A stretch of 64,000 nt of DNA, taken from NCBI GenBank assembly GCA_026708325.1, contig JAPOVC010000024.1, positions 78,282-142,281 of the forward strand, read 5' to 3'. Of this stretch, positions 27,675 to 41,447 are shown piece after piece. Below the pieces are notes generated by a model, which saw only the letters and a list, made by a program, of their open reading frames with translations, was not told the DNA's origin and searched no databases. The DNA comes from Anaerolineaceae bacterium. GTDB lineage: Bacteria; Chloroflexota; Anaerolineae; Aggregatilineales; Phototrophicaceae. The stretch's first letter is position 1. The number at the start of each line of letters is the position of its first letter. Both the position numbers and the translations under genes were made by a program.

Positions 27675-27803
27675 GACCTCTGATCCAGGAAAGGGGCGTT
27701 ATGGACCTGTGTTGTTGATCTCTTCATACTTGCCCCTGTCTTGCTGGCGGCCAGATCTCTTGTCAGGGCAAGCAATAGTAGAAGATTCGACCACAGGCAC
27801 CTG

Positions 27804-27845
27804 GAGCCCCTCTCCCTCAGGGAGAGGGGTTTGGGGTGAGGGCCG
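27804..27845 (-). repeat. Simple palindromic repeat, opposite orientation
   Basis: CTCTCCCTCAGGGAGAG hairpin followed by GGGGTTTGGGGTGAGGGC, the complement of the usual start. It is uninterrupted, and head-to-head with the next copy. Confidence 0.85.
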
Positions 27846-27904
27846 CCCTCACTGCCCAAACCCATTCCCGCTCAGTCGGGGAAGTCTTTCCCCAGGGAGA
27901 GGGG
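27845..27904 (+). repeat. Composite repeat with one inserted hairpin
   Basis: CGCCCTCACTGCCC start, module ATTCCCG-CTCAGTCG-GGGAAGTC, then a CCCCAGGGAGAGGGGG arm. With the preceding inverted copy it forms a large inverted repeat centred near 27845. Confidence 0.85.
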
Positions 27905-27924
27905 GCAATTGCCAGGAGGGAGAG

Positions 27925-27953
27925 TTGCGAGGTTACGTGATACTGGCTATGTT
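27925..27953 (+). promoter_or_regulatory. Sigma70-type promoter of the GH32 gene
   Basis: TTGCGA, 17-bp spacer, TATGTT, ending 46 bp upstream of the ATG. Confidence 0.5.
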
Positions 27954-27999
27954 TCGTGCGCCTTGTTTCCCTCTAGATAGTGGTCCAGGAGTGTTGCGT

Positions 28000-29439
28000 A
28001 TGCCTTCCCTATACACGGTCGAGGAAATGCAGCAGCAGCGGGAGGCGCTTGCCGTTGACTGGCAACGGCCCACCTGGCACTTCCTGCCGCCCTCCTGCTG
28101 GATGAACGACCCCAACGGCCTGCTGCAATGGGGCGATCAGTATCACCTTTTCTACCAGCACTATCCCTTCAAGGCGGTGCATCGCGACATGCACTGGGGC
28201 CACGCCGTCAGCGAGGACCTGATTCACTGGCGCGACCTGCCGGTAGCCTTTGCGCCGGTTGCCGGCAGCTACGACGAATCGGGCGTGTTCACCGGCTGCG
28301 CGGTCGACAATGACGGCGTACCGACCATCATTTACACGGCCACCAGCGGGCCCGGCAGCCAGGTGCAGGTGCAGGCCCTGGCCACGGGCAGCGGCGAGGA
28401 CCTGGTGCGCTGGGAACGCCATCCGGCCAACCCGGTGCTGGCGGAGGTGCCGGCCATCTCCGGCCAGACGCGCGACTTCCGCGACCCCTTCGTCTGGCGC
28501 GGCGAGGACGGCTGGTACATGGTGCTGGGCTGCCGCATCGAGGGCAACGGCGGCATGATCCCGCTCTACCGCTCGCCGGACCTGGTGGACTGGGAGTACC
28601 TGGGCCCGATGATCACCGGCGACGTGGACAAGCATGGCAGGATGTGGGAATGCCCCAACTTCTTCCCCCTGGGCGACAAGTGGGTGCTGTATTTCTCGTC
28701 CATCCACGATGACCGCGAGAACACCGTCTACTGGATGGCGGGTGACTTTGACGGGCGTCGCTTCCATCCGGAGACGGACGGCGTGCTGGATTACGCCTAC
28801 TACTACGCGCCGCTGTGCATTGAGGACAGCCAGGGACGGCGTCTGATGTGGGGCTGGCTGCGCGAGGGCCGCAGCATCTCCGAGCAGGTGCGCGCCGACT
28901 GGTCCGGCGTCCAGGCCATCCCGCGCGTACTCAGCCTGGACAGTCAGCAGCGCCTGGTGATGGAGCCCGTCGCCGAGATGGCGGGCATCCGCGGCGCGCA
29001 TACGCAGCTAGGCGCGCAGGATGTCGAAGGCGAGCTGGCTTTGGATTGCGGCAGCCTGGCGCTGGAGTTGCGCGCCAGTTTCGCGCCGCAGGGACAGGTC
29101 GGCCTGAAGCTGGCCCAGGCGCCGGACGGCAGCTACGGCGCGGCCATCAGTTGGGACGCGGCGGCGCAGGAACTGACGGTGACGCGCCAGGACAGCAGCC
29201 TGTTCAACGACAACGACCCCTGCACGGCGCCGCACCAACTGGCGGCGGGCGAATCCCTTGACCTGCTGGTCCTGCTGGACGGCTCGGTGCTGGAGATCAT
29301 CGCCAACGGCCGCACGAGCATCACCAGCCGCATCTATCCGCCCGACGCCGAATGCACAGGTCTGGCTCTTACGGGTGCCGGCGCGCGCCTGAACGCGCTG
29401 GACGTCTGGCAGATGGAGCCAACCTGGCCTCGTAAATGA
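28000..29439 (+). CDS. GH32 beta-fructosidase (sucrose/sucrose-6-phosphate hydrolase)
   Basis: 479 residues from the ATG at 28000, with AGGAG about nine bases upstream. All three catalytic motifs are present: WMNDPNG (nucleophile D37), FRDPF (161-163) and MWECPNFF (acid/base E217). The C-terminal 130 residues form the expected beta-sandwich. No signal peptide, so it acts in the cytoplasm on sucrose or short fructans. Its last ten residues (EPTWPRK end) are novel: a near-copy of the preceding 20 codons with a different ending lies 1.3 kb downstream beyond the DarT island. Confidence 0.93.
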   Translation: MPSLYTVEEMQQQREALAVDWQRPTWHFLPPSCWMNDPNGLLQWGDQYHLFYQHYPFKAVHRDMHWGHAVSEDLIHWRDLPVAFAPVAGSYDESGVFTGCAVDNDGVPTIIYTATSGPGSQVQVQALATGSGEDLVRWERHPANPVLAEVPAISGQTRDFRDPFVWRGEDGWYMVLGCRIEGNGGMIPLYRSPDLVDWEYLGPMITGDVDKHGRMWECPNFFPLGDKWVLYFSSIHDDRENTVYWMAGDFDGRRFHPETDGVLDYAYYYAPLCIEDSQGRRLMWGWLREGRSISEQVRADWSGVQAIPRVLSLDSQQRLVMEPVAEMAGIRGAHTQLGAQDVEGELALDCGSLALELRASFAPQGQVGLKLAQAPDGSYGAAISWDAAAQELTVTRQDSSLFNDNDPCTAPHQLAAGESLDLLVLLDGSVLEIIANGRTSITSRIYPPDAECTGLALTGAGARLNALDVWQMEPTWPRK

Positions 29440-29451
29440 CCCTGTGAAGCG

Positions 29452-29970
29452 ATGAGAAATGTGAGATTTCACGTCCTGTATCACTTCACTGACACAAGAA
29501 ATTTAGACAATATAAGGGAATTTGGAGGTCTATACTCCCTAGCGGAACTGCGTCGGCAAGGAATTCCAATTCCGGCGCCAGGTGGCGGCAATTTAAGCCA
29601 TAGCTTGGCCCAACAAAAGGGTTTGGACTGCTATGTGCATCTTTGCTGCATCGTACGCCACCCGATGGAATTCGTCGTACATCAAGACGGAAGTATCGCG
29701 GAAACAATCTATCTGCGAATTGATCCGGAAATTGTCCTTTGGTCTGGAGTACGTTTTGCGCCTAACAATTCTCTCAAAACAGGGGTTTCGCTTTATGCTA
29801 TGGACGAAGCAGTTGAGAAGAACATGATTGACTTTGAAGTCTGCAACCAATTATTCAGGCAGCAAGATTCGGATGAGAAGCAGAAGCGCTGGGAAGCCGC
29901 CAGACGATACGAGATTCTGGTTCCTGACAAAATCCCGTTGAAGTTTATCAGGAATTTCCCTTGTGGCTGA
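29452..29970 (+). CDS. darT: DarT1-like DNA ADP-ribosyltransferase toxin
   Basis: 172 residues. The pattern LYHFTDTRNLDNIREFGGLYSL (HFT at 11-13), IPIPAPGGGNLSHSL, GLDCYVHLCCIVRHPM, LRIDPEIV and YEILVPDKIPLKFI (candidate catalytic glutamate E154) is that of DarT (formerly DUF4433), which ADP-ribosylates bases in single-stranded DNA and is toxic without its antitoxin. Family recognition is from memory of the motifs. It overlaps the partner gene by 8 bp. The start has no strong ribosome site. Codon use differs from the rest of the window, indicating transfer. Confidence 0.82.
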   Translation: MRNVRFHVLYHFTDTRNLDNIREFGGLYSLAELRRQGIPIPAPGGGNLSHSLAQQKGLDCYVHLCCIVRHPMEFVVHQDGSIAETIYLRIDPEIVLWSGVRFAPNNSLKTGVSLYAMDEAVEKNMIDFEVCNQLFRQQDSDEKQKRWEAARRYEILVPDKIPLKFIRNFPCG

Positions 29971-30700
29971 GCGTCCTGTTTTTTTTCCAACACCGCCGGG
30001 TCAACACCCTCATGTTGAGGAGCTTTGCTTCAGTTTTGTGTGGAATCCAGGCTTCGCTCCTGTTCAGAAAAAGAAAAACATTAGTGCCTTGCACAAGGCT
30101 GCGGAAAGAGAAGGGTATTTGCCTCTATTGGAGATCTCGACAAAATCGGACGAGAAGCTTGGAAAACGCCTCAGCGCATTCAATCTTAAGGTTCACAGTG
30201 AAAGTGATGGTGAGATTCCGCTGGAATGCGCGTTTCAAGGGAGCAAAGTCTTCGAAGGGGGAGGGCCTTTCACAGACTTGTACAAAGTTGACCCCAAGAC
30301 GGCAAAAAGGGACCAACGGTTGAGAACTTCGGGGGCGCTCGTCAGGTTTGCGTTCGAAGGTGTCTCATTCGAACCTGAGCCCAAGACCGCATTTTATGAC
30401 TGGTTGTACATCAGGGCGATTTATCCACACAGAGAATGGCTTGAGAGGCTGAAACAATACAAGGGATTCACGGATATTGAATTCAATCCCCAGAAATCGA
30501 TTAACTGTCAGGCTTATTCCTGTGCCTTGTTTGTGGCTCTCATGAAAAGAAGCCAACTGGATTCCGCTGTTTCCTCCAAGGCAAATTTTCTTGCACTGCT
30601 TGCGGGAACTGAATTCAAGTTGGCGCGCGAAGAGATTCACGAGAGTTCTGAGCTACAGCAGCTCTCCATCGATTTCCAAGAGGAGCATCAGAGCCGTTGA
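29963..30700 (+). CDS. NADAR-type antitoxin associated with DarT1
   Basis: 245 residues starting at a GTG inside the end of darT (8-bp overlap), which indicates translational coupling. MAERPVFFPTP, FVWNPGFAPVQKKKNISALHKAAE, LLEISTKSDEKLGKRLSAFNL, ECAFQGSKVFEGGGPFTDLY, PKTAFYDWLYI and GFTDIEFNPQKSINCQA match what I recall of DarT1-linked NADAR proteins, glycosidases that remove the ADP-ribose mark from DNA. The fold of this subgroup is taken from that recollection. It is expected to neutralise the toxin and protect against phage. Confidence 0.78.
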   Translation: MAERPVFFPTPPGQHPHVEELCFSFVWNPGFAPVQKKKNISALHKAAEREGYLPLLEISTKSDEKLGKRLSAFNLKVHSESDGEIPLECAFQGSKVFEGGGPFTDLYKVDPKTAKRDQRLRTSGALVRFAFEGVSFEPEPKTAFYDWLYIRAIYPHREWLERLKQYKGFTDIEFNPQKSINCQAYSCALFVALMKRSQLDSAVSSKANFLALLAGTEFKLAREEIHESSELQQLSIDFQEEHQSR

Positions 30701-30958: not shown

Positions 30959-32356
30959 ATGGGCAAGTTAAGTCGTCGGGAAATGCTGCAGACCACGGCC
31001 GCGGGCACGGCGGGTCTGGCGGCAGTCTCACTGCCTGGCGCGGCGCTGGCGGGGGTCCCTTCGCAGGACGAGGTCACGCTGCGCTTCCAGGTCAATTACA
31101 ACTTCTACATTGATGTGGTGGAGGCCTACAAGTCGGTCGCGCCGCACGTGACCGTGGAGGCCGTGCAGGTGACCGGTACGGACCACGCGGAAGTGGCGAC
31201 CAAGATTCTGGCTTCGCTGGCGGCGGGTAACCCGGTGGACATCGGCTACGCGGCCACCGAGGCGACGCAGCTTTACGCCGGCGAGGGCCTGGCGATGGGC
31301 CTGAAGGACCGTTTGCTGGACCAGGCGGACGACTTCATGGAGTACTTCTCGGACGTCAGCGCCGTGCTGACCGAGACGATGCTTTTTGAGGGCGACCTGT
31401 ACCAGCTGCCGCGCGACTTCAACGCCGCCAACATGTACCTCAACATGAACCTTCTGAACGAGGCGGGCATTGAGGTGCCGGGCGAGGACTGGACGATCGA
31501 GGAATTCACTGACATGGCGAAGGCCCTGACGGGTCTGGGCGAGGCCGGCGACTCCTTCGGTTTTGCATGGCCGAACCGGCTCTGGGGCGGCTGGATGCCC
31601 TGGATCTTCGTCAACGAGACCAACATCCTGACCGAGGAGAAGGCCCCCGGCGGCGAGTGGTTCTGGGACACCTTCTACGCGGACGACCCCTGGGCCGAGG
31701 GTCGTGGCGGCGGCTATCGCTGGCCGGAACCGCAGGCCAACAACCCGGCCGTTGTCGAAGCGCTGGAATACGTCGTCTCGCTGACGGCGGATGGCTACGC
31801 GCCGACGGCCGAGCTGGGGTTCAGCGAGAACCTGGCCGGCTTCTTCGCCAACGACAAGATTGCGATGTTCCCGGCGGGTGGCTTTTTCACCGGCTTCCTC
31901 GAGGCCAACGGCATGGCGAAGGACACCTTCGACGTGCAGTTCTGGCCGAACTGGAAGTCACAGCGGCACCAGCTGGGCGTGGGCGCGGCCTGGATTCTGA
32001 ACGGCGGCGCCAACGTCGAGGCGGCCTGGGATTTCGTGAAGTGGAACACCCGGCGCGACGTGATGGAGCTGATCGGCTTCTTCAAGGACAACTCGACGCT
32101 CACGACGCCGGCGCGGCGTTCCATGTGCAACGCCGAGCGCTTTGAGCGCACCGGCCCGGCCAACTGGCACGTGTTCTACGACACGGTCGACGCGCGGCCG
32201 GACACGGGTCCGATCCCGGCACCGGTGTTCTCGATCGAGCTGACCAACATCTTCACCCGCTACACCAGCCTGGCGGTCAGCCTTGAGCAGTCGCCGCAGG
32301 ACGCGCTGGACAACATGCAGGCGGAACTGGAGGACCTCTACGCGCGCAACGCGTAA
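30959..32356 (+). CDS. Tat-exported sugar ABC transporter substrate-binding protein, paralogue 1
   Basis: 465 residues. The N-terminus MGKLSRREMLQTTAAGTAGLAAVSLPGAALAG is a twin-arginine signal (SRREML), so the protein is exported folded. The mature part follows family 1 (MalE-like) solute-binding proteins: TDHAEVATKILASLAAGNPVDIGY, YQLPRDFNAANMYLN, MFPAGGFF and a C-terminal TNIFTRYTSLAVSLEQSPQDALDNMQAELEDLYARNA. W-rich stretches (WGGWMPWIF, EWFWDTFY) would stack on a carbohydrate. The ATG at 30959 has GAGGAG eight bases upstream. First of five tandem paralogues. Confidence 0.92.
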   Translation: MGKLSRREMLQTTAAGTAGLAAVSLPGAALAGVPSQDEVTLRFQVNYNFYIDVVEAYKSVAPHVTVEAVQVTGTDHAEVATKILASLAAGNPVDIGYAATEATQLYAGEGLAMGLKDRLLDQADDFMEYFSDVSAVLTETMLFEGDLYQLPRDFNAANMYLNMNLLNEAGIEVPGEDWTIEEFTDMAKALTGLGEAGDSFGFAWPNRLWGGWMPWIFVNETNILTEEKAPGGEWFWDTFYADDPWAEGRGGGYRWPEPQANNPAVVEALEYVVSLTADGYAPTAELGFSENLAGFFANDKIAMFPAGGFFTGFLEANGMAKDTFDVQFWPNWKSQRHQLGVGAAWILNGGANVEAAWDFVKWNTRRDVMELIGFFKDNSTLTTPARRSMCNAERFERTGPANWHVFYDTVDARPDTGPIPAPVFSIELTNIFTRYTSLAVSLEQSPQDALDNMQAELEDLYARNA

Positions 32357-32397
32357 GGGTTGGCGCGAGACTCAGCGGGTAGTCGGCCAGATTTGTG

Positions 32398-32437
32398 GCC
32401 CTCACCCCCCGGCCCCCTCTCCCTCAGGGAGAGGGGG
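32398..32437 (+). repeat. Simple palindromic repeat
   Basis: GCCCTCACCCCCCGGCC plus the perfect CTCTCCCTCAGGGAGAG hairpin, 40 bp after the first binding-protein gene. Confidence 0.88.
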
Positions 32438-32460
32438 TGACTCGTTAAGCGGGCAACCGA

Positions 32461-32537
32461 CCCCGGCCTCTTTCCCGTCCTGGGGGACGGGAGCCTTTCC
32501 CGCTCAGACGCGGGAGCCCTTACTCAGGAAGAGGGGG
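32461..32537 (+). repeat. Composite repeat with two different hairpin modules in tandem
   Basis: TTTCCCG-TCCTGGGGGA-CGGGAGCC followed directly by TTTCCCG-CTCAGACG-CGGGAGCCC, then a CTCAGGAAGAGGGGG arm. The two modules share ends but differ in loop. It is the same order, on the opposite strand, as the insert in the SDR genes. Confidence 0.88.
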
Positions 32538-32766
32538 TGTTATTGTCCCTGACAGGGCAGAGGCCGGCAGGTCCCTTTCCTCTTCTACTGTTCTGGTGAA
32601 TCCAGGGTGAGGTCGCAGGGGCAGTTGTACGCGTGGCGCCGGGGACGTCTGGCGAATACAATCTGGTCTGTTCGCCGTCGCAAGCGGCATCGTGCGCGCG
32701 GGAAGGAGCGCTGGCCCGACCCGGCGACGGACAATTGTTTGGCGGGGTATTTTTGGAGGAAGTGAA

Positions 32767-34167
32767 ATGGGCAAGTTAAGTCGAAGGGAAATGTTGCAGG
32801 CGAGCGCGGCCGGTGTGGCCGGGGTCGCCGCGACGGCGTTGCCGGGGGGCGTGTCGCTGGCCTCGGCGCCGTCACAGGACGACGTCACGATGCGCTATCA
32901 GGTCTTCTGGCCGGCGGACTACGACCAGGTCCTGGCAGCCTACACTGAAGCCAATCCGCACGTCACGCTGGAGATTATCAGCGTGACCGGGACGGACCAT
33001 CAGGAAGTGGCGACCAAGATTCTGGCCTCGCTGGCGGCCGGCACGCCAATCGACATTGGTTTCGCCTGTACCGAGGCGACGCAACTCTACGCCGGTGAAG
33101 GTCTGGCCGCGCCGCTCAAGGGACTGCTGATGGACCAGGCGGATGACTTCAAGGAATATTTCGCCGATATCAGCCCGGTCCTGTCGGAGACCATGTTCTG
33201 GGAAGGCGACTACTACCAGTTGATGGTCGACTGGAACGCCGCCAACATGTTCTTCAACATCAACCTGCTCAACGCGGCGGGCCTGGAAATGCCCGAAGAG
33301 ACCTGGACGCGGGAGGACTTTGTCGCCTACGCGCAGGCCATGACAGGCCTGGGCGAGGCCGGCGATTCCTTCGGCTTTGCCTGGCCGAACCGGCTCTGGG
33401 GCGGCTGGATGCCCTGGATCTTCGTCAACGAGAGCAACATCCTGAGCGAGGAGCGGGCGCCGGGCGGTGAATGGTTCTGGGACACCTTCTATGCCGATGA
33501 ACCGAAGGCCGAGGGTCGCGGCGGCGGCTACCGCTGGCCGGAACCGCAGGCCAACAACCCTGCGGTAGTCGAGGCGCTGGAATTCGTCGTCTCGCTGACG
33601 GCCGAGGGTTCGGCGCCGACGGCCGAGCTGGGCTTCAGCCAGAACATGGCCGGCTTCTTCACCAACGACAAGATCGGCATGTTCCCGGCGGGTGGCTTCT
33701 TCACCGGCCACCTGCTGGAGAGCGGTATGGAAATGGGCGAATTCGACGTGCAGTACTGGCCGGCCTGGGCCTCGCAGCGGCACCAGTTGGGCGTCTGCGG
33801 CCCCTGGCTGCTGAACGAAGGCCCCAACCTGGACCAGGCCTGGGACTTCGTCAAGTTCAGCACGCAGCGCGAAGTGATGGAGACGCTGGCATTCTTCCGG
33901 GACACGACGCGCACGACGCCGGTGCGGCGCTCGATGAACAACGCCGAGCGCTATGCCGACACGGGCCCGGCCAACTGGCACGTCTTCTACGGCACGGCGG
34001 ACGAGCGCCCTGACACAGGGCCGATCCCGGCGCCGGTGTTCTCGGTGGAACTGAGCAACATCTTCACCCGCTACACCAGCCTGGCGGTCAGCCTGGAGCA
34101 GTCGCCGCAGGAAGCGATGGACAATATGCAGGCGGAACTGGAGGACCTCTACGCGCGCCACGCGTAG
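32767..34167 (+). CDS. Tat-exported sugar ABC transporter substrate-binding protein, paralogue 2
   Basis: 466 residues with signal MGKLSRREMLQASAAGVAGVAATALPGGVSLASA and a mature protein very similar to paralogue 1 (SFGFAWPNRLWGGWMPWIFVNE is shared almost whole). The substrate-contact region differs: YYQLMVDWNAANMFFN for YQLPRDFNAANMYLN. GGAGGAAGT precedes the ATG at 32767. An upstream TACAAT (32657) may be a -10. The long spacing from paralogue 1 and the intervening repeats suggest a separate transcript. Confidence 0.92.
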   Translation: MGKLSRREMLQASAAGVAGVAATALPGGVSLASAPSQDDVTMRYQVFWPADYDQVLAAYTEANPHVTLEIISVTGTDHQEVATKILASLAAGTPIDIGFACTEATQLYAGEGLAAPLKGLLMDQADDFKEYFADISPVLSETMFWEGDYYQLMVDWNAANMFFNINLLNAAGLEMPEETWTREDFVAYAQAMTGLGEAGDSFGFAWPNRLWGGWMPWIFVNESNILSEERAPGGEWFWDTFYADEPKAEGRGGGYRWPEPQANNPAVVEALEFVVSLTAEGSAPTAELGFSQNMAGFFTNDKIGMFPAGGFFTGHLLESGMEMGEFDVQYWPAWASQRHQLGVCGPWLLNEGPNLDQAWDFVKFSTQREVMETLAFFRDTTRTTPVRRSMNNAERYADTGPANWHVFYGTADERPDTGPIPAPVFSVELSNIFTRYTSLAVSLEQSPQEAMDNMQAELEDLYARHA

Positions 34168-34206
34168 GCAGGGGTCGAATGTGCTGCGGGGTGGGGGTCT
34201 GGATGG

Positions 34207-34292
34207 GCCCTTTTCCCGCTCAGTCGCGGGAGCCCTCCCCCAACCCCCTCTTTCCCGCCTGGTCGCGGGAGCCCTTCTCAGGGAGAGGGGGA
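34207..34292 (+). repeat. Composite repeat with hairpins inserted in both arms
   Basis: GGGCCCT, module TTTCCCG-CTCAGTCG-CGGGAGCCCT, CCCCCAACCCCCTC, second module TTTCCCG-CCTGGTCG-CGGGAGCCC, then TCTCAGGGAGAGGGGG. Removing the two modules restores the simple repeat almost exactly. Confidence 0.9.
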
Positions 34293-34320
34293 GTAGTTTG
34301 TGAATGTGACGGGATTCTCA

Positions 34321-34397
34321 CCTCATAACCCCTTTCCCGTCCTGGGTGACGGGAGCCTTTCCCGCTCAGACGCGGGAGCCCTTCAGGGAGAGGGGGA
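34321..34397 (+). repeat. Composite repeat with two different hairpin modules in tandem
   Basis: CCTCATAACCCC start (degenerate), TTTCCCG-TCCTGGGTGA-CGGGAGCC, then TTTCCCG-CTCAGACG-CGGGAGCCC and TCAGGGAGAGGGGG. Same two-module order as at 32461. Confidence 0.87.
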
Positions 34398-34409
34398 GTG
34401 TTCTCAGGG

Positions 34410-34445
34410 ACGGGGCAGTGGCCGGCGGGTCGCTGCCCCGTTTTT
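34410..34445 (+). terminator. Intrinsic terminator after paralogue 2
   Basis: Stem ACGGGGCAG / CTGCCCCGT around GGCCGGCGGG, followed by TTTTTGTT. Decayed versions of the same block lie after paralogues 1 (about 32550) and 3 (about 36180), so each gene once had its own terminator. Confidence 0.75.
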
Positions 34446-34489
34446 GTTACGGCGAGTCCAATTTGACGACCCTGGGGCGACGGCTCCTG

Positions 34490-34518
34490 TTGCGGCGGGG
34501 TGACCCGCTGGCTAAACT
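34490..34518 (+). promoter_or_regulatory. Sigma70-type promoter of paralogue 3
   Basis: TTGCGG, 17-bp spacer, TAAACT. The homologous element is conserved upstream of paralogue 4 in the same spacing. It lies just downstream of the terminator at 34410. Confidence 0.65.
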
Positions 34519-34638
34519 ATGCTGCGACTCCCGCGCAAGGGGACTGGCGATGCGCCGGCGGGAAGCGGACCGGGGTTCTGCTGCCCCAGGCCGCGAACAG
34601 TCACAGTTTTCGAGGGGATTTTTTTTGGAGGAAGTGAA

Positions 34639-36030
34639 ATGGGCAAGATAAGTCGCAGGGAAATGTTACAGGCGAGCGCGGCCGGTCTGGCCGGTGCTGC
34701 CGCCACCGCCTTGCCGGGGGGCGTTTCGCTGGCCTCGGCGCCATCGCAGGACCAGATTTCGATGCGCTACCAGACCTTTAACATCGATACTGTGCAGCAC
34801 ATGCTCAACACCTACATGGAGCTGAACCCGCACGTGTCGATTGAGGCCATTTCGGTCACCGGCGTCGATCATCAGGAAGTCGCCACCAAGATTCTGGCGA
34901 CCCTGGCGGCCGGCAATCCGGTGGACGTCGGCTTCGCCTGCACCGAGGTGACGCACCTCTACGCCGGAGAAGGTCTGGCGCAGCCGCTGACCGCGCGCCT
35001 GATGGACGACGCGGAAGAGTTCATGGAGTATTACGCGGACACCAGCGCGGCGCTTTCGGAGACCATGCTTTACGAGGGCGACGTCTACCAACTGATGGAC
35101 AATTTCAACGCGGCCAACATGTTCTTCAACAAGAATCTGCTGGCCGAGGCCGGGCTGGAGATGCCGGGCAAGGAATGGACCAAGGACGACTTCTACGGCA
35201 TGGCACAGGCCATGACCGGCATTGACGGCTCCTTCGGCTATGGCTGGATCAATCGCTTCTGGGGCAGCTGGATGCCCTGGATCTTCGTCAATGACACCAA
35301 CGTGCTTGAGGAAGAGCGGGCGCCCGGCGGCGAGTGGTTCTGGGACACCTTCTATGCAGGTGACGAGCGCGCCGTGGGGCGCGGTGGTGGCTGGCGCTGG
35401 CCGGCGCCGCAGGCCAACAACCCGAAGATGGTCGAGGCGCTGGAATTCGTGGTTTCGCTGACGGAGGAGGGACTGACGCCGGCGGTGTCGATCGGCGGTG
35501 GCAACACCCTGCTGGGCTTCTTCAGCGCCAACAAGCTGGGCATGACGCCGGCGGGCGGCTTCTGGTCCGGCGGGCTGATCAACTCCGGCCTGGAACCGGG
35601 CTCCTTCGACACGCAGTTCTGGCCGGAGTGGAAGTCGCAACGGCATCAGCTGGGCGTCTGCGGCCCGTGGATTCTGGATGGCGGCCCCAACGCCGACCAG
35701 TGCTGGGACTTCCTGAAGCACTACAAGAAGCGCGAGATTCAGGACAACCTGGGTCACTTCACGCCCTTGCCGCTGACGACGCCGACGCGGCGTTCGCTGA
35801 ACACGGAAGAGCGCTTCGGCCCGACGGGCGTGGAGAACTGGCGCGTGTTCTACGAGACGATCGACGAGCGCCCGGACACGGGTCCGATCGCGCAGCCGGT
35901 ATTCGTGGTGGAACTGACGAACATTTTCACGCGTTACACCAGTCTGGCGACGAGCGGCGAGCAGACGCCGCAGGAAGCGCTGGACAACATGCAGGCGGAG
36001 ATGGAGGACCTCTACGCGCGCAACGCGTAG
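34639..36030 (+). CDS. Tat-exported sugar ABC transporter substrate-binding protein, paralogue 3
   Basis: 463 residues; signal MGKISRREMLQASAAGLAGAAATALPGGVSLASA. With paralogue 4 it forms a closer pair: both share ISMRYQTFN, ISVTGVDH, HLYAG and YEGDVYQLMDNFNAANMFFNKNLL-type contacts, and GSFGYGWINRFWGSWMPWIF instead of the WPNRLWGGW of 1 and 2. GGAGGAAGT precedes the ATG at 34639. It has its own promoter 120 bp upstream. The divergence in binding-cleft segments suggests a different sugar. Confidence 0.92.
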   Translation: MGKISRREMLQASAAGLAGAAATALPGGVSLASAPSQDQISMRYQTFNIDTVQHMLNTYMELNPHVSIEAISVTGVDHQEVATKILATLAAGNPVDVGFACTEVTHLYAGEGLAQPLTARLMDDAEEFMEYYADTSAALSETMLYEGDVYQLMDNFNAANMFFNKNLLAEAGLEMPGKEWTKDDFYGMAQAMTGIDGSFGYGWINRFWGSWMPWIFVNDTNVLEEERAPGGEWFWDTFYAGDERAVGRGGGWRWPAPQANNPKMVEALEFVVSLTEEGLTPAVSIGGGNTLLGFFSANKLGMTPAGGFWSGGLINSGLEPGSFDTQFWPEWKSQRHQLGVCGPWILDGGPNADQCWDFLKHYKKREIQDNLGHFTPLPLTTPTRRSLNTEERFGPTGVENWRVFYETIDERPDTGPIAQPVFVVELTNIFTRYTSLATSGEQTPQEALDNMQAEMEDLYARNA

Positions 36031-36067
36031 GCACTGGTCAAATGTATTGTGGGGAGGGTCTGACAGG

Positions 36068-36115
36068 CCCTCACCCCCAACCCCCTCTCCCTCAGGGAGA
36101 GGGGGCGCTTTTTTT
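36068..36115 (+). repeat. Simple palindromic repeat acting as terminator of paralogue 3
   Basis: GCCCTCACCCCCAACC and the perfect CTCTCCCTCAGGGAGAG hairpin, followed after CGC by seven T residues. This is a standard intrinsic terminator built from the repeat, 40 bp after the stop codon. Confidence 0.8.
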
Positions 36116-36244
36116 GTATAGAGAAGGCACAAATTGAGCGCCCGCCGCGGCGGTGGACCAGGCGCAAGGTAAACGATCGACGGGTCGCTGCCCCGCTTTT
36201 GCTGCGCAGAGTCCAATGCAGGAAGGTTCTGGCAACTGCTCTTG

Positions 36245-36273
36245 TTGCGGCGTCGGGACCGCCTGGTTAGACT
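36245..36273 (+). promoter_or_regulatory. Sigma70-type promoter of paralogue 4
   Basis: TTGCGG, 17-bp spacer, TAGACT, homologous to the element at 34490. The long 5' leader and the ribosome site are conserved with paralogue 3. Confidence 0.65.
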
Positions 36274-36393
36274 ATGGTCCATGCGCTGGCGCGGCGATGC
36301 AAGCTGCGCCGCTGTCGTAGACGGGAACGGGGTTCTGCTGCCCCGACCCGCAAACTAATAGCGCTCTGGTGGAATGGTTTTGGAGGAGGGGAA

Positions 36394-37785
36394 ATGGCTT
36401 CATTGAGTCGAAGGGAAATGCTGCAGGCGAGCGCGGCCGGTCTGGCCGGCGCTGCCGCGACCGCTTTACCGGGGGGCGTATCGCTGGCCTCGGCGCCATC
36501 GCAGGACCAGATTTCGATGCGTTACCAGACCTTTAACGTGGATGCCGTGCAGGACATGCTCAACAGCTACGTGGAAATGAACCCGCACGTGTCAATCGAG
36601 GCCATTTCGGTGACGGGCGTCGATCACGCTGAAGTCGCCACCAAGATTCTGGCGACCCTGGCGGCCGGCAACCCGGTGGACGTCGGCTTCGCCTGCACGG
36701 AGACGACGCACCTCTACGCCGGTCAGGGCATTGCGCAGCCGCTGACCGCGCGCCTGATGGACGATGCGGAAGAGTTCCTGGAGTACTACGCGGACACCAG
36801 CCCGGCGCTTTCGGAGGCCATGCTCTACGAGGGCGACGTTTTCCAGCTGATGGACACCTTCAACGCGGCCAACATGTTTTACAACAAGAATCTGCTGGAA
36901 GCGGCCGGACTGGAGGAGCCGGGCAAGGACTGGACCAAGGACGACTTCTACGGCATGGCGCAGGCCATGACCGGCATCGACGGGTCTTTCGGTTACGGCT
37001 GGACCAACCGCTTCTGGGGCAGCTGGATGCCCTGGATCTTCGTCAATGACACCAACGTGCTGGTGGAAGAGCGGGCGCCCGGCGGCGAGTGGTTCTGGGA
37101 TACCTTCTATGCGGATGACGAGCGCGCCGAGGGGCGTAGCGGTGGCTGGCGCTGGCCGGCGCCGCAGGCCAACAACCCGAGGATGGTCGAGGCGCTGGAA
37201 TTCGTGGTTGCCATGATTCAGGAGGGGCTGGCGCCGGCCGTGGAACTGGGCGGTGGCCGTACGCTTCAGGGCTTCTTCACCAGCAACAAACTGGGCATGA
37301 CCCCGGCGGGCGGTTTCTGGGCCGGCGGGCTTTACAACGCGGGCATGGAACCGGGCACCTTTGAAGCCCAGTTCTGGCCGGCATGGAGGACGCAGCGGCA
37401 TCAACTGGGCATCTGCGGTCCCTGGATTCTGGACGGTGGCGGCAACGAAGACCAGTGCTGGGACTTCCTCAAGCATTACAAGAAAGCGGAAGTGCAGGAT
37501 AACCTGGGTTATTTCAATCCTGTACCGGCAACGACGCCGTCGCGGCGTTCACTGAACACGGAAGAGCGCTGGGGCCCGACGGGCGTGAAGAACTGGCGCA
37601 TCTTCTACGAGACGATCGACGAACGGCCGGACACGGGACCGATCGCGCAACCGGCGTTTGTGGTGGAACTGACGAACATCTTCACCCGCTACACCAGTCT
37701 GGCGACCAACGGCGAGCAGACGCCGCAGGAAGCGCTGGACAACATGCAGGCGGAGATGGAAGACCTTTACGCGCGCAACGCGTAA
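36394..37785 (+). CDS. Tat-exported sugar ABC transporter substrate-binding protein, paralogue 4
   Basis: 463 residues; signal MASLSRREMLQASAAGLAGAAATALPGGVSLASA. It is the closest relative of paralogue 3 and ends with the same EMEDLYARNA. Differences gather in loops of the mature protein (FQLMDTFNAANMFYN, AMIQEGLAPAVELGGGRTLQGFFTSNKLG). GGAGGAGG precedes the ATG at 36394. It is followed by a GCGGGAC/GTCCCGC hairpin. Confidence 0.92.
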   Translation: MASLSRREMLQASAAGLAGAAATALPGGVSLASAPSQDQISMRYQTFNVDAVQDMLNSYVEMNPHVSIEAISVTGVDHAEVATKILATLAAGNPVDVGFACTETTHLYAGQGIAQPLTARLMDDAEEFLEYYADTSPALSEAMLYEGDVFQLMDTFNAANMFYNKNLLEAAGLEEPGKDWTKDDFYGMAQAMTGIDGSFGYGWTNRFWGSWMPWIFVNDTNVLVEERAPGGEWFWDTFYADDERAEGRSGGWRWPAPQANNPRMVEALEFVVAMIQEGLAPAVELGGGRTLQGFFTSNKLGMTPAGGFWAGGLYNAGMEPGTFEAQFWPAWRTQRHQLGICGPWILDGGGNEDQCWDFLKHYKKAEVQDNLGYFNPVPATTPSRRSLNTEERWGPTGVKNWRIFYETIDERPDTGPIAQPAFVVELTNIFTRYTSLATNGEQTPQEALDNMQAEMEDLYARNA

Positions 37786-37802
37786 GGTCTGTGAGACTGG
37801 TT

Positions 37803-37850
37803 GCGGGACGGCGGCCGGCAGGTCGCTGTCCCGCATTCAATTGACTTTTT
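37803..37850 (+). terminator. Probable terminator after paralogue 4
   Basis: Stem GCGGGAC / GTCCCGC around GGCGGCCGGCAGG, related to the block at 34410. The T-run (five T) is 11 bases beyond the stem, so termination may be weak. Confidence 0.5.
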
Positions 37851-37957
37851 ATGGCGGCATAAGAATTCCAGAAAAAAGTGGGTTGCAGCGACGCTGCGAA
37901 TTTCCGGGCAATCTCCAGCGAGGCGCCGGCTGACAGTCACACAGGGCCAGTGATCTG

Positions 37958-38038
37958 GCGCGATTCGTCGTCAGCCTGGCAGCGGACGCCCATTACCTGA
38001 CCGACCACAAGGGCCATGACCTCAAGCAGGTCCGGTGA
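37958..38038 (+). pseudogene. Possible gene remnant (26 codons and a stop)
   Basis: A frame reading ARFVVSLAADAHYLTDHKGHDLKQVR then TGA. Almost every third codon position is G or C, as in the real genes here, yet there is no start and the frame is closed 27 bp upstream. It looks like the C-terminus of a lost gene. I do not recognise the family. Confidence 0.35.
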
Positions 38039-38102
38039 GTTGTTTTGGCGAGCCTGCAAGCGGGTCAACATGAGCCCCGGGATATTTTTGGGAGAATTTG
38101 AA

Positions 38103-39479
38103 ATGAATGCGTTGAGTCGACGGGAAATGATACAGGCGAGCGCGGCCACGGTGGCCGCTGTCGCGTTACCGGGAAGCGTGGCGCTGGCCTCGGCACCATC
38201 GCAGGACAACATCACGTTGCGCCTGCAGGCCGACCCGCGGGACTATCAGGAAGTGATCGATGCCTACGCTGGCGTCGCGCCCAACGTGACCGTCGAGCCG
38301 GTCAGCGTGACCGGCATCGACCACGCCGAGGTCGCGACCAAGATTTTGGCTTCGCTGGCCGCCGGCACGCCGGTGGATATCGGCTTCGCGGCCACGGAAG
38401 CGACGCAGCTATACGCCGGCGAGGGCCTGGCGATGGGCATGAAAGACCGCCTGCTGGACCAGCCCGATGACCTGATGGAGTATTTTTCGGACGTCAGCCC
38501 GGTGCTGGTCGAAACCGACTTTTACGAAGGCGACCTTTATCAGTTGCCGCGCGACTTTAATGCCGCCAACATGTGGCTGAACACCAAACTGGTAGGGGAG
38601 GCCGGCCTGGAGATGCCCGGCGAGGACTGGACGAAGGACGACTTCAATGAATACGCGAAAGCCCTGACCGGGCTGGGCCCGGAAGGCGATTCCTTCGGCT
38701 TCGCCTGGAACAACGGGCTCTGGGGTGGCTGGCTGCCCTGGATCTTCGTCAACGGGAGCAACCTGCTTAGCGAGGAACGCGTGGGGGGCGGCGAGTGGCT
38801 GTGGGACACTTTCTACGCCGATGACCCCAATGCCGCGGGGCGTGGCGGCGGCTTCCGCTGGCCGGAACCACAGGCCAACAACGCGGCCAACGTGGAGGCG
38901 CTGGAGCACGTAGTGGCGCTGACGCGGGACGGTTATGCGCCATCGGTCGAACGCGGTTTTGCCGAGAATCTGTCGGGCTTTTTCGCCGCCGACAAGATTG
39001 GCATGTACCCTGGCGGGGGCTTCTTCACGGGCTTCCTGCAGGACGCCGGTATGGAACCGGGCACATACGACGCCCAGTTCTGGCCCTGGTGGCAGTCCCA
39101 GCGGCACCAGCTGGGCGTGGGCGCGCTGTGGATCCTGATCGGCGGCAGTGAAGATGCCGCCTGGGACTTCGTCAAGTGGCACACAGGCCGCGACGTGATG
39201 GAGATGATCGGTTTCTTCCGGGTGACGCGGACGACGCCGGCGCGGCGCTCGATGTGCACGGCAGAGCGCTTTCCAAACGTGAGCAACTGGAACATATTTT
39301 ACGACACGGTGGACGCGCGGCCGGACACGGGGCCGATCCCGGCGCCGGTCTTCTCGATCGAATTGACGAATATTTTCACGCGCTACACTGAAGTGGCCGT
39401 CAGCCTGGAGCAATCGCCGCAGGATACGCTGGACGCGATGCAGCGCGAGCTGGAAGACCTCTACGCGCGCAACGCGTAG
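38103..39479 (+). CDS. Tat-exported sugar ABC transporter substrate-binding protein, paralogue 5
   Basis: 458 residues; signal MNALSRREMIQASAATVAAVALPGSVALASA. It groups with paralogue 1: YQLPRDFNAANMWLN, LAMGMKDRLLDQPDD, SFGFAWNNGLWGGW and VDARPDTGPIPAPVFSIELTNIFTRYT. GGGAGAA precedes the ATG at 38103. It is the last binding protein and the only one next to the permease genes, from which it is separated by a 13-bp-stem hairpin. Confidence 0.92.
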   Translation: MNALSRREMIQASAATVAAVALPGSVALASAPSQDNITLRLQADPRDYQEVIDAYAGVAPNVTVEPVSVTGIDHAEVATKILASLAAGTPVDIGFAATEATQLYAGEGLAMGMKDRLLDQPDDLMEYFSDVSPVLVETDFYEGDLYQLPRDFNAANMWLNTKLVGEAGLEMPGEDWTKDDFNEYAKALTGLGPEGDSFGFAWNNGLWGGWLPWIFVNGSNLLSEERVGGGEWLWDTFYADDPNAAGRGGGFRWPEPQANNAANVEALEHVVALTRDGYAPSVERGFAENLSGFFAADKIGMYPGGGFFTGFLQDAGMEPGTYDAQFWPWWQSQRHQLGVGALWILIGGSEDAAWDFVKWHTGRDVMEMIGFFRVTRTTPARRSMCTAERFPNVSNWNIFYDTVDARPDTGPIPAPVFSIELTNIFTRYTEVAVSLEQSPQDTLDAMQRELEDLYARNA

Positions 39480-39501
39480 GGTCGACAGCGGCAGAACAGC
39501 A

Positions 39502-39551
39502 AGCGGCTGCACAGGGATTCGTCAGAAGACTGTGCAGCCGCTATACTTTTT
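39502..39551 (+). terminator. Hairpin with T-run between the last binding protein and the permeases
   Basis: Perfect 13-bp stem AGCGGCTGCACAG / CTGTGCAGCCGCT, 15-base loop, then ATAC and five T. It can act as a partial terminator or as a 3' stabiliser that keeps binding protein in excess over permease. Confidence 0.75.
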
Positions 39552-39577
39552 GCCAGGCAGTTGAGAGGAGGCGCAGC

Positions 39578-40531
39578 GTGGCATCCGAAGCGACCCTGGG
39601 CAGCGGTCGACGCAACTGGCTACCTTCCTGGCTGGCCGGGGACACGGTGCAGGGCATCCGGCGCCAGCGGATGGTGCTGGGCATTCTCTTCCTGTTGCCG
39701 ACGCTGATCGGTCTGATCCTCTTCGTGCTGGGCCCAATCGTGGTGGCCGTCGCGATGGGCTTTATGAAATGGAATGTCTTCCGGCCACCGGAGTTTGTCG
39801 CGCTCAAGAATTTTGCGCGACTGTTTCAACATGATCTTGTGGGAAACAGCTTCAGCAACACCTTCGTCATGATGGCGATGACGGTGGGCATGCTGGAGGT
39901 CTTTGCGATCGCGCTGGCGCTTTCGGTGCACCGCTTCGCGCGCAGCCGCCTGGCCTACTTCTTTCGGACGGTCTGGTTTCTGCCGGTGCTGCTCTCGGGC
40001 GTCTCGGTGGCCGTCACGCTGTCCTACATGTTTCATACGGATTTCGGCGTCGTCAACTATTACCTTGGGGTGCTCGGCATCGACAAGGTGCCCTGGCTGG
40101 TCTCCAGCGACGTGGTGCGCCTGAGCGTCTCGCTGGCAACAGTGTGGCGGAACCTGGGCTTCACCTTCATCATCTATCTGGGCGGCGTGAGCGCCCTGCC
40201 GCAGGAGATCCTGGAAGCGGCCACGGTGGACGGGGCGCGTGGACTCAAGCGACTGTGGCTGATCACGTTGCCGCTGCTGAGTCCGACGATCCTGTTTGCG
40301 ACGGTGATCGACGTGATTCGCCTGCTGCAGTTCTTCGACGAGCCCTATGTGATGACTCGCGGGGGACCGGGCGATTCGAGCCGCACGGCCGTGATGATGG
40401 TCTACGACACGGCCTTCGCCAACCTTGAGTTCGGTTACGCCTCGAGTATTTCGGTGGTCCTGTTCCTGATCATTCTGGCGGTGACCGGTTTCCAGTTCCT
40501 GCTCAGCAAGCGCTGGGTCTTCTACCAGTAA
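39578..40531 (+). CDS. Sugar ABC transporter permease (MalF/UgpA-like)
   Basis: 317 residues, six membrane segments. The first is FLLPTLIGLILFVLGPIVVAVAMGF, and the conserved EAA loop is EAATVDGARGLKRLWLITLPLLSP, which docks the ATPase. The start is a GTG at 39578 with GAGGAGG upstream. It pairs with the next gene to form the channel for the upstream binding proteins. No ATP-binding subunit is encoded in the cluster, so a shared MsmK/UgpC-type ATPase must come from elsewhere. Confidence 0.92.
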   Translation: MASEATLGSGRRNWLPSWLAGDTVQGIRRQRMVLGILFLLPTLIGLILFVLGPIVVAVAMGFMKWNVFRPPEFVALKNFARLFQHDLVGNSFSNTFVMMAMTVGMLEVFAIALALSVHRFARSRLAYFFRTVWFLPVLLSGVSVAVTLSYMFHTDFGVVNYYLGVLGIDKVPWLVSSDVVRLSVSLATVWRNLGFTFIIYLGGVSALPQEILEAATVDGARGLKRLWLITLPLLSPTILFATVIDVIRLLQFFDEPYVMTRGGPGDSSRTAVMMVYDTAFANLEFGYASSISVVLFLIILAVTGFQFLLSKRWVFYQ

Positions 40532-40547
40532 GGGAGGGGAGACGAAC

Positions 40548-41447
40548 ATGACGGTCATCAACCGGCTCTCGACCCGGCGCCGCGGTGACGAGGACGTGGT
40601 GGAACGCATCCCGGACTGGATGCCGCGCAATGCTGCAGACTGGCTGGCGATGGCTTTCATGGTGGCCATCGGCATGCTGACGATCATGCCGATCATATGG
40701 GTCATGTCCACCTCGCTGCGCACGCCGGCGGAATCCTTCACCGTGCCACCGGAGTGGCTGCCGGAGGACCTGTATTTTGGCAACTATTTGCAGGTCTTCG
40801 ATGAGATCCCCTTCGTCTACCAGATGGGCAACAGTTTCTTTGTGACGCTTTCGACGGTCGTCGGGCAATTGACGACGGCCACGCTGGCGGGCTACACCTT
40901 CGCGCGGCTGTACTTTCCCGGGCGCGACGCGTTGTTCTGGGTGGTGCTGGCCACGCTAATGATCCCCTACCAGGCGACACTGATTCCGCTCTTCGTCATC
41001 ATTTCAAAAGTCTTCGGGCTGGCCGACACGCTGTGGTCGCTGATTTTGCCGGCCTTGCCGACGGCCTTCGGCACCTTCCTGCTACGCCAGTACTTCCTGC
41101 AGATTCCCGTGGAGTATGAGGAAGCGGCGATGATGGACGGGGCCAACCAGTTCCAGATCTTCCGCCGCGTCTACCTGCCGATGGTGGCGCCGGGCATGGC
41201 GATCCTGGCGGTGCTGGCCTTCAACGGCAAATGGAACGACTTCCTGACGCCGCTGATCTTTATGAACACGACGTCCCGCTTCCCGATCACGCTGGGCATC
41301 AACGACCTGCAGCGTTACATGATGACCGGCAGCATCTCGGTGGTGTTGGCGGCCATCGTCATGGCGACGCTGCCGGTGGTCATCGTCTACATCTTCGGCC
41401 AGCGTTACCTGATCGAGGGCCTGATGGTGGGCGGTCTGAAGGGCTAG
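40548..41447 (+). CDS. Sugar ABC transporter permease (MalG/UgpE-like)
   Basis: 299 residues, six membrane segments. The EAA loop is EAAMMDGANQFQIFRRVYLPMVAPG, and the C-terminus YLIEGLMVGGLKG is the usual MalG-type ending (GLxxGAVKG). GGGAGGGGAGA precedes the ATG, 16 bp after the first permease, so the two are cotranscribed. Confidence 0.93.
   Translation: MTVINRLSTRRRGDEDVVERIPDWMPRNAADWLAMAFMVAIGMLTIMPIIWVMSTSLRTPAESFTVPPEWLPEDLYFGNYLQVFDEIPFVYQMGNSFFVTLSTVVGQLTTATLAGYTFARLYFPGRDALFWVVLATLMIPYQATLIPLFVIISKVFGLADTLWSLILPALPTAFGTFLLRQYFLQIPVEYEEAAMMDGANQFQIFRRVYLPMVAPGMAILAVLAFNGKWNDFLTPLIFMNTTSRFPITLGINDLQRYMMTGSISVVLAAIVMATLPVVIVYIFGQRYLIEGLMVGGLKG

Follow-up and report, generated by a model that had tools for sequence, protein, structure and literature searches.

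Five diverged binding-protein genes in a row beside one permease pair at a GH32 locus of a Chloroflexota bacterium

Why should a single pair of sugar-type permease genes be preceded by five genes for binding proteins? The question is raised by positions 30959–41447 of a 64 000-nt stretch from an Anaerolineaceae bacterium of the Chloroflexota (assembly GCA_026708325.1, contig JAPOVC010000024.1, positions 78 282–142 281), the whole of which we call the window; the source genome, G000 below, is a 3.3 Mb draft of 29 contigs. We show that this row, array 1, grew by duplication from a single solute-binding protein (SBP) gene with its permease pair, and we consider it fairly probable that it encodes a CUT1-like type I importer for beta-fructosides, in which duplication within the genus turned the one receptor gene into several diverged ones standing in a row. 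The genes of the row are listed here with the start codons of S1–S5 moved to their twin-arginine leaders.

30959–32356, forward strand: S1, SBP with a leader of the twin-arginine translocation (Tat) type, retaining the ancestral PRDF segment; lacks an orthologue in the arrays of the congeners G047 and G048
32767–34167, forward strand: S2, SBP of group A (LMVDW); orthologues in G047 and G048 (broken in the latter)
34639–36030, forward strand: S3, SBP of group B (LMDNF); orthologues in G047 and G048
36394–37785, forward strand: S4, SBP of group B (LMDTF); 86% identical to S3
38103–39479, forward strand: S5, SBP of group C (LPRDF), adjoining the permeases; orthologues in G047 (first of its array) and G048
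39578–40531, forward strand: P1, sugar-type ATP-binding cassette (ABC) permease, UgpA/GlcT-like (BPD_transp_1 5e-14; NCBIfam UgpA 5.8e-28, under the curated cut-off)
40548–41447, forward strand: P2, sugar-type ABC permease, UgpE/GlcU-like (BPD_transp_1 2e-16; NCBIfam UgpE 6e-31, under the curated cut-off)

An earlier note on this DNA had described five paralogues followed by two permeases, and this description holds: S1–S5 are all complete genes, and S5 alone adjoins P1 and P2. The Tat export that it proposed is likewise predicted here, each of the five proteins starting, as read from the sequence, with a twin-arginine SRREM leader that has no lipobox cysteine, and the genome has one TatC. With a MalE-type (family 1) SBP and two UgpA/UgpE-type permeases, the locus qualifies as a sugar-type (CUT1-like) importer. 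S1, S2, and S4 score above the cut-off of Pfam SBP_bac_1; S3 and S5 have no match to it at 0.001, though they are 59–86% identical to other members of the array. The predicted S1 structure (pLDDT 78) matches sugar-binding SBPs at Z 29–32. We rejected naming a ligand from the Foldseek and VIA matches, because these span sucrose-, maltose-, and glucan-binding proteins and are thus too broad.

To trace the descent of the row, we ran a profile built from S1–S5 (E <= 1e-60) over 98 genomes of the family, of which 31 contain members of this SBP family. Rows of at least three occur only in the window's genus, in G000, G047, and G048 (3/98 genomes); other genera have one copy, except that G093 and G094 have an additional, shorter one. 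A phylogeny of 30 proteins, in which one broken gene was read with X, unites the 11 rows of array 1 in one clade (100/99), with the single-copy orthologues as its closest rows. The tree recovers the two sequence groups proposed in the earlier note, S1, S2, and S5 on one side and S3 and S4 on the other, and finds orthologues of S2, S3, and S5 in both congeners; S1 is placed as the sister of the S5 group (90/86), S4 outside the S3 group (83/94). Since orthologue groups are common to the three species, the duplications predate them, and loss in the congeners is the simplest account of the missing S1 and S4. G000 has nine family members in total: besides S1–S5 there are four that lie close to contig ends, on C7 and C28, and correspond to four in G047 and three in G048; given this position, they probably form one array, array 2. 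Its 11 rows are again one clade (100/100), and its place in the tree shows array 2 to be a paralogous locus that expanded separately from array 1.

What the locus handles is indicated by a neighbor of the row, from which it is separated in the window by a further gene pair.

27709–29439, forward strand: glycoside hydrolase GH32, fructan/sucrose type (Pfam Glyco_hydro_32N 6.6e-81)
29452–30700, forward strand: pair of DarT (PF14487) and NADAR-DarT1 antitoxin (PF22397), between GH32 and S1

The gene order GH32, SBP, P1, P2 is found in the eight nearest single-copy genomes, and GH32 is directly upstream of the SBP gene in 9/9 nearest single-copy loci, the permeases of the ninth being cut off by a contig end. 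GH32 is also directly upstream in array 1 of G047 and G048, and array 2 has GH32 genes downstream as well. In Arthrobacter alkaliphilus (L082:8001-12710) an SBP gene whose product is 39% identical precedes two permease genes and a GH32-like gene; the link therefore crosses phyla. By this adjacency across relatives, array 1 belongs to a GH32 (fructan) locus, putatively one for fructan uptake. The DarT/NADAR pair was not found in the congener loci L060 and L062.

The receptors themselves have diverged considerably, with protein identities from 59% (S4/S5) to 86% (S3/S4). The earlier note held that the groups differ mainly in binding-cleft segments; this is not borne out, as 238/428 positions of the mature proteins are variable and those specific to a group, 96 in number, occur in 28/29 blocks of 15 residues. 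Yet one change at the predicted cleft or hinge is striking. The segment LPRDFNAA is retained in S1, in the S5-type proteins, and in 7/8 single-copy proteins, the eighth having I for the first L (PRDF 8/8), and is replaced by LMVDW in the S2-type (3/3) and by LMDNF or LMDTF in the S3/S4-type proteins (4/4). It aligns with LPVYIDAG of the trehalose/maltose-binding protein 1eu8, which we take to border the sugar, and the MalE hinge motif presumably places it there too. The eight single-copy proteins agree with one another at 243 positions, of which 34 are altered in S1, 43 in S5, 46 in S2, 48 in S3, and 51 in S4. This pattern bears on a first alternative, gene dosage, by which S1–S5 would all share one ligand and the row would do no more than increase the quantity of receptor protein. 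Importers normally require a surplus of receptor over permease, and 190/428 mature positions are identical in every array-1 copy, as dosage would allow; however, the groups are 59–75% identical, carry distinct residues fixed across species, and differ at the PRDF segment that single-copy relatives keep invariant, so that we regard dosage as unlikely.

Comparison of the three congeners shows the row turning over beside stable permeases. Copy number in array 1 is 5/3/3, and the order is S5-type, S2, S3, then P1 in G047 and broken S2, S3, S5, then P1 in G048; the neighbor of P1 is thus S5-type in G000 and G048 and S3-type in G047, with P1 and P2 94–99% identical between species. The broken first copy of G048 (L062:12635-14197, reverse strand) has no in-frame leader and one internal stop. 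Around the S3-type gene of G048, the upstream flank resembles that of S3 and the downstream flank that of S4 (90% over 156 bases), a mixture of the kind that recombination between neighboring copies predicts. A second alternative is that some of S1–S4 have left the transporter to serve other permeases, or as scavengers or sensors, leaving P1/P2 to be fed by S5 alone or by whatever receptor is encoded next to P1. The gaps of 317–471 bases between consecutive SBP genes with the hairpins that they hold, the promoter-like blocks of S3 and S4 (both described below), and the 136 permease-domain (BPD_transp_1) matches in the genome would all suit it. Against it, the type of gene adjoining P1 varies between species next to nearly unchanged permeases, and the orphan binding proteins of the same group that the earlier note had suggested seeking did not turn up in the own genome, where no close family member lies outside the two arrays; we think such a departure decidedly improbable.

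Selection was estimated as Nei-Gojobori dN/dS for 19 SBP pairs and 6 other pairs. Orthologous array-1 SBPs give 0.06–0.17 (the two pairs involving the broken G048 copy and S2 give 0.15 and 0.07), S4 against S3-type genes 0.22–0.24, the other three array-1 paralogue pairs computed 0.25–0.46, and the permeases 0.02–0.08. On these estimates, the orthologue groups S2, S3/S4, and S5 are shown to be kept by purifying selection. A neutral expansion, with recombination between tandem copies making and removing genes for little functional gain, would explain the varying copy number and order, the broken G048 copy, and the mixed flanks of its S3-type gene, but is very unlikely given this selection on orthologues and the separate expansion of two loci. 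As to gene conversion among copies, a run test over 152 silent sites gave p 0.026–0.05 in 4/16 within-genome pairs, a signal that is unconvincing because 16 tests were made.

The signals between the genes include the following.

34490–34518, forward strand: promoter-like TTGCGG-N17-TAAACT before S3
36245–36273, forward strand: promoter-like TTGCGG-N17-TAGACT before S4
32412–32438, forward strand: dispersed palindrome after S1
34405–34446, forward strand: hairpin after S2 with a strong stem and a T run, terminator-like (19 pairs, -35 kcal/mol, 0/100 shuffles)
36081–36105, forward strand: dispersed palindrome after S3, then a T run
37802–37835, forward strand: hairpin after S4 (15 pairs, 0/100 shuffles), its flank matching that of the G048 S3-type gene at 90% identity
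39502–39542, forward strand: hairpin between S5 and P1 (13-pair stem)

The conserved promoter blocks that the earlier note had reported are both exact at 34490 and 36245 (mononucleotide shuffles of the window give 0.02 matches on average), but stand before S3 and S4 only, and its division of the row into separate transcription units is accordingly supported for these two genes and not for the other members. The block TTGCG[GC]-N17-TA[ACG]ACT precedes all four S3-type genes of the three species and has no further occurrence in the window or in L060/L062. Downstream of it, the leaders of the S3-type genes carry an element, GGGTTCTGCTGC, at 34574 and 36331 (4/4 across three species), which has three sites in the genome, two of them here, and is possibly an operator or RNA element. 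The GGAGGAAGT-like ribosome sites that had been noted are clear for S2, S3, and S4 and weaker for S1 and S5. Generic scans came out near chance, with 2 sigma-70 promoters found against 1.2 expected and 10 terminators against 8.2.

Proposed terminators fared unevenly. The hairpins at 32412 and 36081 are not gene-specific terminators, because they are part of a dispersed palindrome, CCCTCTCCCTNAGGGAGAGGG, with 48 exact sites in the genome and, allowing up to 2 mismatches, 7 in the window against 0 expected (among them 5046, 27808, 32415, 36083, and 61378); those at 34405 and 37802 are distinct from it. We also searched for hairpins after the stop codon in 90–300 bases per gene, a stretch chosen by the analyst, with 100 shuffles each. 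All SBP genes examined (30/30) have such a hairpin with 10 or more pairs, equaled by no more than 2/100 shuffles in 29/30 genes and by 9/100 in G047_a1, and the best hairpin resembles the dispersed palindrome in four array-1 genes (S1, S3, G047_a1, and G048_a1). All 11 array-2 genes have a similar GGGGGAG...CTCCCCC hairpin ∼30 bases past the stop; having no T run, these are unlike ordinary terminators. A hairpin between a binding-protein gene and its permeases sets their ratio in malE-malF. Here, one between SBP and permeases is present in 8/8 single-copy loci, and the one between the last SBP gene and P1 occurs at the same place in G000/G048 and in G047, with both arms differing between the two.

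That no sugar-type ATPase is encoded in the locus, another point of the earlier note, is borne out: the nearest ABC ATPases are of the Opp/Dpp type and on the other strand. The proposed genome search for an MsmK/UgpC-type ATPase yielded an orphan MsmX-like gene on contig C14. Against its 136 BPD_transp_1 matches, the genome has two OB_MalK ATPases in all; the one on C20 belongs to another SBP/permease locus, and that on C14 stands alone among unrelated neighbors. The C14 protein, which we liken to MsmX by sequence, has 7x0q as its best solved relative and MsmX (6yir) as the second (4.7e-124 to MsmX). Excerpts of PMC7658222 describe MsmX residues D77, R104, E110, and K154 as tested by mutation, and one MsmX ATPase as serving several sugar importers that have no local ATPase. 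Known CUT1-like importers often, though not always, have a MalK-type ATPase in their locus. Since importers that use MsmX likewise lack one, its absence here is compatible with membership of the CUT1-like importers. The C14 ATPase has D, R, and E (3/4, in an alignment read by eye), and the C20 ATPase has 1/4, read from its own sequence without an MsmX alignment.

Beyond anatomy and descent, we infer the following mechanism for the beta-fructoside importer. S1–S5 would all dock on P1/P2, which the orphan C14 ATPase would power; S1 and S5 would retain the ancestral ligand, probably a fructo-oligosaccharide, and S2 and S3/S4 would bind related but different glycans, with GH32 cutting the imported sugars inside the cell. 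The hairpin between the last receptor gene and P1 may let receptor mRNA exceed permease mRNA, and S3 and S4 may be switched on separately by their own promoters. The earlier idea of one channel with a swappable receptor set is plausible and in part supported, as the single-receptor origin, purifying selection, and the P1 neighbor that differs between species fit it; the GH32/fructan link had been missed. Several points weigh on the other side. Docking of all five on P1/P2 is a presumption in a genome that has dozens of other permeases, and K154 of MsmX is replaced by A in the orphan ATPase. The higher dN/dS between paralogues may reflect relaxed constraint. GH32 linkage tells what the locus handles, not the ligands of S2–S4; the DarT/NADAR pair intervenes between GH32 and S1 in the window, and distant relatives (g22, ∼50% identity) have no GH32 in the ∼1.5 kb fetched on each side. 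A bolder version, which we offer tentatively and hold to be rather doubtful, is a receptor-cassette system: next to a constant fructan channel, recombination would add, remove, and rearrange units of binding protein plus hairpin, and would do so in parallel at both array loci of the genus, giving species-specific sets of glycan receptors with one genome-wide ATPase.

An importer with tandem receptors is known in kind, a studied example being the Opp system of Borrelia burgdorferi, whose receptors belong to another SBP family (OppA type). According to excerpts of PMC5736914, it has five paralogous binding proteins, OppA1–A5, three of them encoded in tandem, with few permeases and one ATPase set, each tandem gene with its own promoter beside operonic transcripts, and relatives have fewer OppA copies, one species having a truncated copy. 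Array 1 shares with it several diverged tandem receptors with fewer permeases, and may have individual promoters for S3 and S4, the two genes with a promoter-like block; Opp differs in handling peptides and in having a pair of ATPases of its own and two pairs of permeases. The milk-oligosaccharide cluster of Bifidobacterium infantis has six close family 1 SBPs with overlapping but different glycan binding (excerpts of PMC3057974); it resembles array 1 in holding several closely related sugar SBPs within one locus, whereas its glycans are those of human milk and mucin. GlnPQ, with two fused substrate-binding domains, provides more than one receptor specificity per channel (excerpts of PMC8025302), but its receptors are fused to the permease and its substrates are amino acids. 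Sponge Chloroflexi have many sugar ABC transporters, the terms ‘fructan’ and ‘solute-binding’ being absent from the excerpted text of PMC6306507. We found no paper in the open PMC literature on an arrangement of several SBPs with one permease in Chloroflexota. The novelty here lies in the link to sugars and GH32, in two loci having expanded within a single genus, and in the turnover documented by comparison of relatives.

If the importer works as proposed, the genus and its relatives form a natural series, from one receptor in sister genera to sets of three, four, or five, reached twice within one genus. This series would serve to test how an importer widens its diet via added receptors, not channels, with the ancestral-type PRDF receptor as control, and would tie a poorly annotated Tat-type binding-protein family of Chloroflexota to GH32 fructan loci.

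Further multiplication of transporter genes was seen elsewhere. In array 2 (L061:13351-16825, L063, and L065), one permease pair is followed by another that is only ∼30% identical to P1/P2. Contig C15 (10050-14079; L076) has three paralogous SBPs, 65–87% identical, with the second permease in two copies (77% identical), and contig C26 (58575-62575; L077) has three, 63–66% identical, one interrupted by a stop, in a row that, judged from sequence, has its own ABC ATPase gene. Receptor rows are therefore a habit of this genome and not a single oddity.

The surroundings of array 1 comprise, upstream of S1 and in this order, GH4, a galactokinase-like GHMP kinase, GH32, and the DarT-NADAR pair, and, downstream of P2 on the opposite strand, a DAO oxidoreductase and an Opp/Dpp transporter. 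Odd company in a sugar operon is a chaperonin-like (Cpn60_TCP1) gene with conserved RPTLGP and GDGTAT motifs, which adjoins a BNR/sortilin-like gene within GH32-SBP-permease loci (L067:8812-10440, L069:8526-10154, L070:2491-4122, L071, L072, L073, and, in the own genome, L065:2046-3743; seven aligned, with the family match tested in three).

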